A DNA stretch of 64,000 bases. Origin: Cytophagaceae bacterium. Its GTDB lineage: Bacteria > Bacteroidota > Bacteroidia > Cytophagales > Cytophagaceae. The stretch spans positions 28,726-92,725 of the forward strand of contig JAQZBV010000026.1 in the NCBI GenBank assembly GCA_029237685.1. The letters are read 5' to 3'. Both the position numbers and the translations under genes were made by a program. The notes under the pieces are model-generated. The model was not told the origin of the DNA and did not search any database. It saw only the letters and a program-made list of their open reading frames with translations. Below are positions 13,193-21,214 of the stretch, piece after piece. Position 1 is the first letter of the stretch. Every line of letters starts with the position of its first letter.

Positions 13193-13231
13193 CTGCAATT
13201 TTCCCTTTAAAGATGCAATTAATGCATACAA

Positions 13232-13263
13232 TAAAAAAGGGTTCCGTATGAACGAAACCCTTT
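13232..13263 (-). terminator. Intrinsic terminator in leader of the MFS gene (proximal)
   Basis: AAAGGGTTTCGTTCATACGGAACCCTTTTTT on the minus strand. Confidence 0.8.
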
Positions 13264-13266
13264 GAT

Positions 13267-13415
13267 GAATCTTTAAATCCCTACGGCAGCATGAACTGTT
13301 TTCCGATTCTGTGATGGTATACACAAGGGGCATAACATCTCAACAGATCCATACTTCAGCATGCAAGTGTCGGTTCTCCGGGTGACCTGACGGATCAGGA
13401 GCCCCTTAAAGATTC
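13267..13415 (-). promoter_or_regulatory. TPP-riboswitch-like leader element (proximal, divergent core)
   Basis: P1 arms GAATCTTTAA...TTTAAAGATTC as in the canonical copy at 20989-21091; GGGG..., TTGAGATGTTATGCCCC and GCTGCCGTAGGGA remain recognisable; terminator follows. Confidence 0.55.
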
Positions 13416-13582
13416 GTTGTATAGTAAGTATAGAAAATAGTATGCCATTGATCCAAAAACTATATTTATGCAGCAATAAGCTACTTCTGGTAAAATTATT
13501 TTTAATGATTGATAAAAAGCCTCTACAATTCATCAGCTAGCTGGTTAATACACTACTCACACTTCTTATCAATTCTGGATAT

Positions 13583-13616
13583 AAAAAAAGGATCCTGCTT
13601 TTCAGAGGGATCCTTT
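13583..13616 (-). terminator. Intrinsic terminator after the distal TPP-like element
   Basis: AAAGGATCCCTCTGAAAAGCAGGATCCTTTTTTT on the minus strand. Confidence 0.8.
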
Positions 13617-13619
13617 GGT

Positions 13620-13767
13620 AAATCTTTAATTCCTTACGCAGTATGTATTACAGGCGCTAAAGGTATCTTCTCAGTTCTAGTGATGAAGCACCATATAAAG
13701 AGTCGGTAGTCATAGACTGTCTCAGTTGAGGGTTGCTGTTGTATATCCAAAAACCCTTTAAAGATTC
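13620..13767 (-). promoter_or_regulatory. TPP-riboswitch-like leader element (distal, divergent core)
   Basis: GAATCTTTAAAGGG...ACTGAGAAGATACCTTT...CTGCGTAAGGAATTAAAGATTT on the minus strand; terminator follows. Confidence 0.5.
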
Positions 13768-13922
13768 GTTGTATATATACTATTGAAAATTTTAAGCCTA
13801 ATCAATCGATGAGGAGAAACAGAAGAAAATGAGCCAATTAGATCATGACAAAATAAAAACACATTAAAAAAAATACCCAATTGCACAAAATATGATGACT
13901 CTATTACTCAAATTTCTGACAC

Positions 13923-19595: not shown

Positions 19596-19637
19596 GTTTT
19601 CAGTTATCAGTTATCAGTTATCAGTTTTCAGTTATCA
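19596..19637. repeat. 7-bp tandem repeat (AACTGAA/AACTGAT on minus strand) overlapping a gene 3' end
   Basis: AGTTTTCAGTTATCAGTTATCAGTTATCAGTTTTCAGTTAT. Confidence 0.9.
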
Positions 19638-20928
19638 TTTCCTTCACTACCTCCAATCCGCTTCCCAGTGCTGCTTCTACCGTGCCTGTACCATGCCCCC
19701 GGTCCAGTGCTTCACCGGCAAAAAACAGTCTTTGTCCTACCGGTTTCATGAATTGCTGCATGAATTTATCGGCCTCTAAAGTAGAATACGAATAGGCCCC
19801 TAAAGCATAAGGATCATTTGTCCAATGAAAGACACGGCTGGCCAGTAATTCTTTTCTTAACTCTTCTATTTCAATTTTGAAAATATCAGACAGTGATTGT
19901 AAAGCATCGGTTGTCATGTGTTGTTCATCCCCTGTATACTGCAAGGCCGCAGGTCCCGACAGCCAACCGGTGAGTACAGGAGCAGGATTGGGTTCTTGTG
20001 TCCACCAGGTAGGAACAGTGGCATCTGAAAATAAAAAGAAAAACTTATGCAAATCTGCACCTATAGCTTGCTGTACCGATTTATCCTTCCAGAAAGCATG
20101 CTTGAATTCTAACACAAACTTCACCACATGTCCAAAACCCAAGGCATAAGCGGCTTCTACTTTTTTAGGCAAAGGAGGAAAAAAAGCGATCGCTGCTTCT
20201 GCTCCTTCAGGAGCCTGCCATACACCTAAGGGAACGGTAATCAATACTTGATCTGCCGTGTAAGTAGTCTTCACATCTGTGATGACTTCCACATGCGAAG
20301 CGCTCCAATGAATTTCCTTGACCACTTCCGATAAGAATAGTTTTACACCGTGTTCATGACACTCCTGCCATAGGGCATGCATCAACATGCTGTAGCCTCC
20401 GTTGATGTGGTATTGTTCCCAGGGCTGTTCCTGCTGCCATTCCTCTTTGAAAGCCAATGTACTGGCTCGGGCTATATCTGCCGCATCATAACCTTCAATG
20501 TATCCGCGAATGGCATCCACCATTTCTTCATAGCGTTCACCGGAAAAGTGAGTGTTGATAAATTCTTCAATGGAAATATCTTCTTTGATACCACGCAGCT
20601 TTTCTTCCAAAATTTCCTGGTGTTGAATCACATCATAGCCTTTAAAAAATTTACCTTTTCTAAAATTCCAGATCTCTCCTTCTACATGATGGTAGACAAT
20701 GCCGTATTCCTGCAAGAGTTGTAAGGTCAGGGGAAGATTACCGTGTACAAATTCGGCTCCGGCTTCTATGCGCACATCAAAGCCTTCGCCTTTCATGCTG
20801 TGGATACGACCCCCTATGCGATCTCTTGCTTCAAGTATGATCACTTTCTTCCCTTTTTTGCTCAACTCACGTGCTGCCGAAAGTCCTGAAGCACCTGCTC
20901 CGATAATGATCGCATCTACTTTTGTCAT
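19621..20928 (-). CDS. Flavin monoamine oxidase family protein
   Basis: DAIIIGAGASGLSAARELSKKGKKVIILEARDRIGGRI (FAD Rossmann) and RLFFAGEALDRGHGTGTVEAALGSG. Confidence 0.93.
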   Translation of the reverse strand: MTKVDAIIIGAGASGLSAARELSKKGKKVIILEARDRIGGRIHSMKGEGFDVRIEAGAEFVHGNLPLTLQLLQEYGIVYHHVEGEIWNFRKGKFFKGYDVIQHQEILEEKLRGIKEDISIEEFINTHFSGERYEEMVDAIRGYIEGYDAADIARASTLAFKEEWQQEQPWEQYHINGGYSMLMHALWQECHEHGVKLFLSEVVKEIHWSASHVEVITDVKTTYTADQVLITVPLGVWQAPEGAEAAIAFFPPLPKKVEAAYALGFGHVVKFVLEFKHAFWKDKSVQQAIGADLHKFFFLFSDATVPTWWTQEPNPAPVLTGWLSGPAALQYTGDEQHMTTDALQSLSDIFKIEIEELRKELLASRVFHWTNDPYALGAYSYSTLEADKFMQQFMKPVGQRLFFAGEALDRGHGTGTVEAALGSGLEVVKEMITEN

Positions 20929-20952
20929 GGTTTTTTTTTCTTATCACAATAT

Positions 20953-20985
20953 AAAAAAAGGATCCCGCTTTCAGTGGGATCCTTT
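20953..20985 (-). terminator. Intrinsic terminator after TPP riboswitch
   Basis: AAAGGATCCCACTGAAAGCGGGATCCTTTTTTT on the minus strand. Confidence 0.88.
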
Positions 20986-20988
20986 GAT

Positions 20989-21091
20989 GAATCTTTAAAT
21001 TCCCTACGTCAGTATTACCTGCTTCAGGTCCGATGGGTATTTCTCAGTCTGTTCCGATGTGATCGGAAGGTATGACACCCCTTAAAGATTC
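20989..21091 (-). promoter_or_regulatory. TPP riboswitch (THI box)
   Basis: Minus strand GAATCTTTAAGGGGTGTC...CTGAGAAATACCCATCGGACCTGAAGCAGGTAATACTGACGTAGGGAATTTAAAGATTC matches the THI-box consensus (GGGGUGC, CUGAGA, ACCC, ACCUGA, UAAUxC, GCGUAGGGA). Confidence 0.93.
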
Positions 21092-21214
21092 GTTACATTC
21101 TACTAAAGAGGAAATAACGTGCCAATGCGATGAGGTGTCCCGAAACAGTATTTTTATAGTATCCAATGGATAAATGTGCCACAATTTGACTATAAATGTG
21201 GTTAAATTTCTATG

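Follow-up and report, generated by a model that had tools for sequence, protein, structure and literature searches.

The question raised by the 64,000-nucleotide stretch of DNA analysed here (hereafter the window) is what two TPP-riboswitch-like leaders do in series in front of a single gene, which encodes an MFS transporter on the minus strand (Table 1). The source lineage is an uncultured Chitinophagaceae-type bacterium, and we compared four genomes of its genus, all contig-level assemblies: that of the window (G000) and the MAGs Cytophagaceae bacterium LF-bin-428 (G001), Chitinophagaceae bacterium RYN_301 (G002) and Chitinophagaceae bacterium RYN_299 (G003), the last of which is a sister species. 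We consider that the two leaders are probably serial terminator switches of TPP descent with rebuilt double cores, selected together with the MFS gene, and that they would follow an OFF logic with weakened or altered sensing.

The two elements share extended P1 arms, as the initial annotation had proposed. The 5′ arm GAATCTTTAA is exact in the distal leader, in the proximal leader (13415-13406) and in a third leader located before a flavin amine oxidase gene (21091-21082), and the matching 3′ arm is exact in the proximal and amine-oxidase leaders (20998-20989 in the latter, minus strand), the arms common to the MFS and amine-oxidase leaders being GAATCTTTAA and TTAAAGATTC/T. In the distal leader, the 3′ arm carries one change. 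The strong intrinsic terminator claimed for each element is present, with a T-run, and both leaders have their terminators in G000 and G003 alike. Arm copies with at most one mismatch are not unusual over the 64 kb (13 found vs 10.6 expected); the unusual feature is that exact arms are paired around cores, with a terminator behind each. Aptamer folding is somewhat better than that of shuffled sequences (z = −2.4, −2.0, and −1.4). The locus holds two aptamer-terminator units in series before one gene, and both are selectively kept, as described below.

Table 1 Features of the two MFS leaders and of the amine-oxidase leader in the window.
Feature	Position	Strand	Remarks
MFS transporter CDS, 415 aa	11945..13192	−	PF07690/PF05977 matches; downstream of both leaders
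Distal leader	13583..13770	−	P1 5′ arm, two-part core, P1 3′ arm, terminator
Distal P1 5′ arm GAATCTTTAA	13758..13767	−	Exact; P1 pair probabilities 0.7-1.0 in both species
Distal P2A stem GGGTT...AACCC	13730..13756	−	Compensatory outer pair (G-C in G000, A-U in G003)
Distal core A relic ACTGAGACAGTCTATGACTACCGA	13703..13726	−	In the stretch that aligns with proximal core A in G003
Distal core B, TPP P2-P3-J3/2 half GGTGCTTCATCACTAGAACTGAGAAGATACC	13662..13692	−	31-nt stretch identical in G000 and G003
Distal core B, rebuilt P4/P5 half ending GCGTAAGG	13632..13661	−	Without ACCTGA and the P5 5′ side
Distal P1 3′ arm TTAAAGATTT	13620..13629	−	One change; G-U pairing still possible
Distal intrinsic terminator with T-run	13583..13616	−	Hairpin 13616-13588, −13.4 kcal/mol, z −3.0
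Promoter-like block TGGCATACTATTTTC before proximal leader	13433..13447	−	
Proximal leader	13231..13418	−	P1, core A, core B, P1′, terminator
Proximal core A, P4/P5-like half AACCGACACTTGCATGCTGAAGTATGGATC	13346..13375	−	Half-to-half match above shuffles; clearer in G003
TTGAGATGTTATGCCCC, possible J3/2-P2′ of proximal core B	13327..13343	−	TTGACT instead in G003
Proximal core B, P4/P5 half AATCGGAAAACAGTTCATGCTGCCGTAGGGA	13278..13308	−	R2 match 17.9 bits, E 0.02
Proximal P1 3′ arm TTAAAGATTC	13267..13276	−	Exact
Proximal intrinsic terminator with T-run	13231..13263	−	Hairpin 13263-13236, −15.9 kcal/mol, z −6.5
Promoter-like block TGGCACGTTATTTCC before amine-oxidase leader	21110..21124	−	
Reference TPP-type aptamer before flavin amine oxidase gene	20989..21091	−	Same P1 arms; RF00059 49.0 bits
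Amine-oxidase leader terminator	20953..20985	−	

A promoter-like block lies between the two leaders. Eight of nine leaders, belonging to three types, carry a block TKGCAY-N5-TT whose distance to the end of AACGAA is 33-36 nt (fixed relative to P1, at −33 to −36); it is present before both proximal copies and upstream of leaders in congeners, and it is lost in the G000 distal leader. Its conservation raises the possibility that the locus comprises two promoter-switch-terminator cassettes that are independent of each other, and not a single two-gate leader, in which case the short terminated RNAs may also act in trans. The narrower motif TGGCAY-N5-TTYC, with 5 matches in the window against 0.64 expected (two of the five before leaders), fits such an arrangement, as do two TPP-type elements of the genome without a downstream gene. 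On the other hand, the distal block of G000 is missing, the exact motif is not enriched genome-wide (5 matches vs 5 in the control), and the block resembles a −24/−12 promoter but has T at −13, where sigma-54 sites carry G. Although rather unlikely in our judgement, the arrangement in cassettes is compatible with the main explanation. A sigma-54 promoter was considered, rpoN being present in three of the four congeners, and rejected, since the −12 element and the genome-wide counts give it no firm support.

The TPP descent of the MFS leaders is not visible to the family-wide model. RF00059, with a gathering score of 54.3 bits, gives 13.9 bits for the distal and 13.3 bits for the proximal leader of the window, no match above noise in either, and 26.2 bits for the G003 proximal leader. 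No Rfam family is called at the gathering threshold anywhere in the 64-kb window, including the HMP-PP (thiS) motif, provided that the Rfam copy covers it. The RF00059 check proposed at the outset thus yields no match above threshold, while a homology signal comes from a genus-specific model and from the relatives. With the arms removed, the cores align locally to the amine-oxidase TPP core better than shuffles in all four leaders (p = 0.000-0.005), and R2, a genus TPP model built from ten leaders, matches the G003 proximal leader twice (E = 7e-4 and 4e-5), the distal leader of the window at E = 0.011 and its proximal leader at E = 0.02. These alignments and matches bear out the initial description of the leaders as TPP-riboswitch-like and support a common descent of both with TPP aptamers. 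The RF00059 model is too blunt for them, and conserved TPP-derived switches are here entirely missed by the standard Rfam threshold. The amine-oxidase leader, initially taken as a canonical TPP riboswitch, also scores below the gathering score (Table 1); since its G002 orthologue reaches 60.2 bits, the family assignment stands.

The TPP aptamer binds the pyrimidine through CTGAGA and the pyrophosphate through the P4-P5 loop with ACCTGA/CGTAGG. CTGAGA and ACCTGA are kept in 10 of 10 canonical or near-canonical leaders of the genus, ACCTGA being judged by alignment columns with one-letter gaps in places. The cores of the MFS leaders are about 1.5 times the normal length, with two partial copies under one P1, and the core motifs quoted in the initial annotation are present in both leaders. 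By alignment, a single P1 in the G003 proximal leader encloses two partial TPP cores. The alignment of proximal core B covers P4-P5, as does that of core A in G003, and the two halves in that species match each other with a score of 24, the largest score of 200 shuffles being 13. The extra hairpins first noticed in the proximal copy are present but are largely this second partial core, which is clearest in G003. The distal leader seems to be built in the same way. Its core B aligns to the TPP core from ACTGAGA to CGTAAGGAA, with the P5 5′ side and ACCTGA missing or changed, in agreement with the earlier remark that the distal copy lacks ACCTGA in place. Proximal core A resembles distal core A in G003 (p = 0.003), and the G000 pair is not significant. 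ACTGAGA occurs twice in the distal leader, where the second copy aligns with the TPP J3/2 motif and the first, in G003, lies within the stretch that aligns with the proximal first core (P4/P5). Taken alone, this repeat is not significant (p = 0.45), and a real half-site duplication of CTGAGA was not accepted. We read these alignments as pointing to one ancestral double-core leader that was later duplicated, the distal part of this reading being weaker than the proximal part.

The half-pockets are split among the cores. Distal leaders keep only CTGAGA, and the G003 proximal leader keeps only ACCTGA, with ACCTGA...CTGACGTAGGG fully kept in its core B and TTGACT at the CTGAGA position; the G000 proximal leader combines TTGAGA with ATCGGA. 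No core unites an intact CTGAGA in J3/2 with ACCTGA/CGTAGG, and the designation as TPP riboswitch therefore fails on two tested features, while TPP descent and build pass. Since neither leader has both normal halves of the binding site, the leaders may sense something other than TPP, and they would be expected either to bind TPP more weakly or to recognise a related molecule (thiamin, thiamin monophosphate, HMP, or a phosphorylated relative).

The same distribution weighs against the reading of both leaders as ordinary TPP sensors with drifted sequence, in which the pair would steepen the TPP response as a pseudo-cooperative tandem. The P1 arms and terminator design are those of the near-canonical amine-oxidase leader, the ACCTGA half of G003 proximal core B is complete, and there is ample precedent for tandem TPP pairs in which each member has a terminator (PMC9481103). 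Such sensors would nevertheless have to work with no single core holding both pockets, a distal core without ACCTGA and one P5 side, and a G003 proximal core with TTGACT, whereas the canonical positions are strictly kept in the other TPP leaders of the genus. We regard this reading as unlikely. It is also doubtful, and somewhat more so, that the leaders represent a genus-level riboswitch type, a fused double TPP core under one P1 with divided labour, in which the pyrimidine half would fall to the distal leader and the phosphate half to the proximal one, and the transporter would be gated by two different thiamin-related ligands.

Comparison with known systems places the MFS leaders near TPP riboswitches (RF00059), with which they share a P1-enclosed core, CTGAGA in J3/2 (distal), ACCTGA/CGTAGG in P4-P5 (G003 proximal), and a downstream terminator. 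They differ in that no core has both half-pockets and in scoring 13-14 bits against 54.3. Tandem TPP riboswitches are common, with 213 reported (PMC9481103). The Bacillus anthracis tenA-type tandem (Welz and Breaker 2007, as cited in PMC9481103) likewise places a series of two complete leaders, each with a terminator, ahead of a single gene; in contrast, that source interprets the known pairs as TPP sensors that are probably pseudo-cooperative, whereas here the cores are rebuilt and a promoter-like block separates the leaders. The source also attributes a preference for thiamin or thiamin monophosphate to some TPP-class RNAs, and the MFS leaders, compared with such variants by description only, are similar as members of the TPP lineage with core changes that may shift specificity (PMC9481103). 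TPP/HMP-PP tandems (thiS motif) are also known and resemble the present locus in having thiamin-pathway switches in series with two terminators (PMC6478431). The thiS aptamer, however, sits within the terminator stem, while each MFS leader has its terminator apart from a P1 of the TPP type. The TPP riboswitches described for Bacteroides stand before operons for thiamin biosynthesis, OMthi and pnuT, and the accessible part of the report contains no mention of an MFS or amine-oxidase target (PMC5613172).

In the preferred reading of two terminator switches, both derive from one TPP riboswitch type of the genus and act in cis, in series before the MFS gene, each with a long P1 helix around a rebuilt core of two partial TPP aptamer copies, followed by the terminator. 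When the core folds on the putative ligand, P1 and the P2-like stem would form, leaving the terminator hairpin free and stopping transcription; when ligand is absent, the 5′ side of the terminator could pair with an upstream strand, of which AGGGTTTTTGG in the distal leader is the best case, and read-through would follow. This OFF logic is drawn from known terminator-type TPP switches. In the distal leader, pairing of the P2A 5′ strand with the terminator 5′ strand amounts to −10.9 and −11.1 kcal/mol in the two species (p = 0.024 against shuffles in G003, 0.18 in G000), and the terminator strand changes along with the P2A pair (ATCCCT to GACCTTT). No antiterminator pairing stands out against shuffles in the proximal leader, and an antiterminator formed by the P1 5′ arm and the terminator in the amine-oxidase and proximal leaders was rejected as no better than shuffles. 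Most likely, the MFS leaders function as terminator switches whose TPP-type sensing is altered or weakened.

The relatives show how the leaders are maintained. G003 keeps both leaders and the MFS orthologue, which lies over two contigs (80% and 92% amino acid identity) without an internal stop. G002 has the amine-oxidase leader only, and in G001 (C44, L054/L051) all that remains of the MFS gene behind the distal leader is a 3′ remnant carrying frameshifts and a stop, the proximal leader being absent. Between G000 and G003, identity is 132/152 (87%) in the distal aptamer and 116/161 (72%) in the proximal aptamer, against 41-47% outside the leaders (56/137 in the spacer, 59/126 in the 5′ flank) and 127/318 (40%) at the pooled fourfold sites of neighbouring genes (36-41% by gene), for which dS is ~2 or undefined. 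Fisher tests give p = 4e-19 (distal) and 1e-8 (proximal) against the flanks, and 4e-23 and 3e-11 against the pooled fourfold sites, which supports selection on both leaders together with the MFS gene. Since both leaders occur in two species only, the covariation looked for in relatives rests on one or two pairs, one being the compensatory change in distal P2A (Table 1).

In G001, the distal leader has changed at sites invariant in G000 and G003 (CTGAGA to CAGAGA, GCGTAAGG to TCGTGAGG, a 2-nt deletion), and its P1 3′ arm is broken (TTAAAGATT to TTAGAAAT). With gap columns excluded, 11 sites changed in G001 alone and 4 in G003 alone (binomial p = 0.12), the counts in the amine-oxidase CDS being 73 and 77. 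At this p value, the evidence for decay is the identity of the changed sites and not a significant rate, and relaxed selection on the G001 distal leader is likely from the nature of these sites and the loss of the gene and of the proximal leader. The initial suggestion of decaying copies fits G001, where the MFS gene is broken; where the gene is intact (G000 and G003), we reject it for the distal leader and consider it unlikely for its proximal counterpart. That both leaders are decaying amine-oxidase leader copies with no present function is highly improbable, because, despite the low RF00059 scores and clear decay elsewhere in the genus (the G000 C174 element and the G001 distal leader), the distal core including its 31-nt stretch is nearly invariant while fourfold identity is 40%, and decay is seen where the MFS gene is broken.

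Model R1 finds distal-type leaders, over 59 genomes, in the genus only, and RF00059 detects no TPP element within about 1.5 kb of MFS orthologues outside it. A contig scan for CGTARGGAN{1,2}TTAAAGATTCA returned three genus records and five unrelated ones, one of which is a canonical Luteibacter TPP element.

TPP riboswitches are the most widespread riboswitch class, and, to our knowledge, few natural routes are known by which they gain new ligands or logic. The small genus studied here combines near-canonical, rebuilt and broken states of one leader, whose order is known, and this series, with natural gene loss as a control, makes steps in riboswitch re-specialisation testable. The locus also points to the MFS protein as a candidate in thiamin-related transport. 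Its family is MFS_1/MFS_3, the best NCBIfam match is EntS, far below the cut-off, the likeness to EntS-like/MFS_3 exporters being likewise below cut-off, and no sequence relatives were found in the PDB.

Further TPP-type elements occur in the genus. The flavin amine oxidase behind its TPP-type leader (19621-21124, minus strand) is kept in all four congeners. Other RF00059 matches in the genome are a thiC leader (73.5 bits), an element lacking a downstream gene (70.9 bits) and a degenerate element adjoining tRNA-Leu (23.3 bits). The degenerate element (G000 C174, L004:1499-1596, minus strand) has the same P1 3′ arm and a terminator, is preceded by TTGGCACGAGATTTTC and has no gene downstream. 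A long-P1 TPP aptamer with a conserved stretch downstream is present in all four congeners (G000 C62, L002; also L048, L046, and L040). Its terminator is GAACAAACG...CGTTTGTTC, it converges on a yihY-like gene, no gene evidently belongs to it, and CGTAGGG is lost in G001 and G002; this element is possibly a TPP-linked small RNA.
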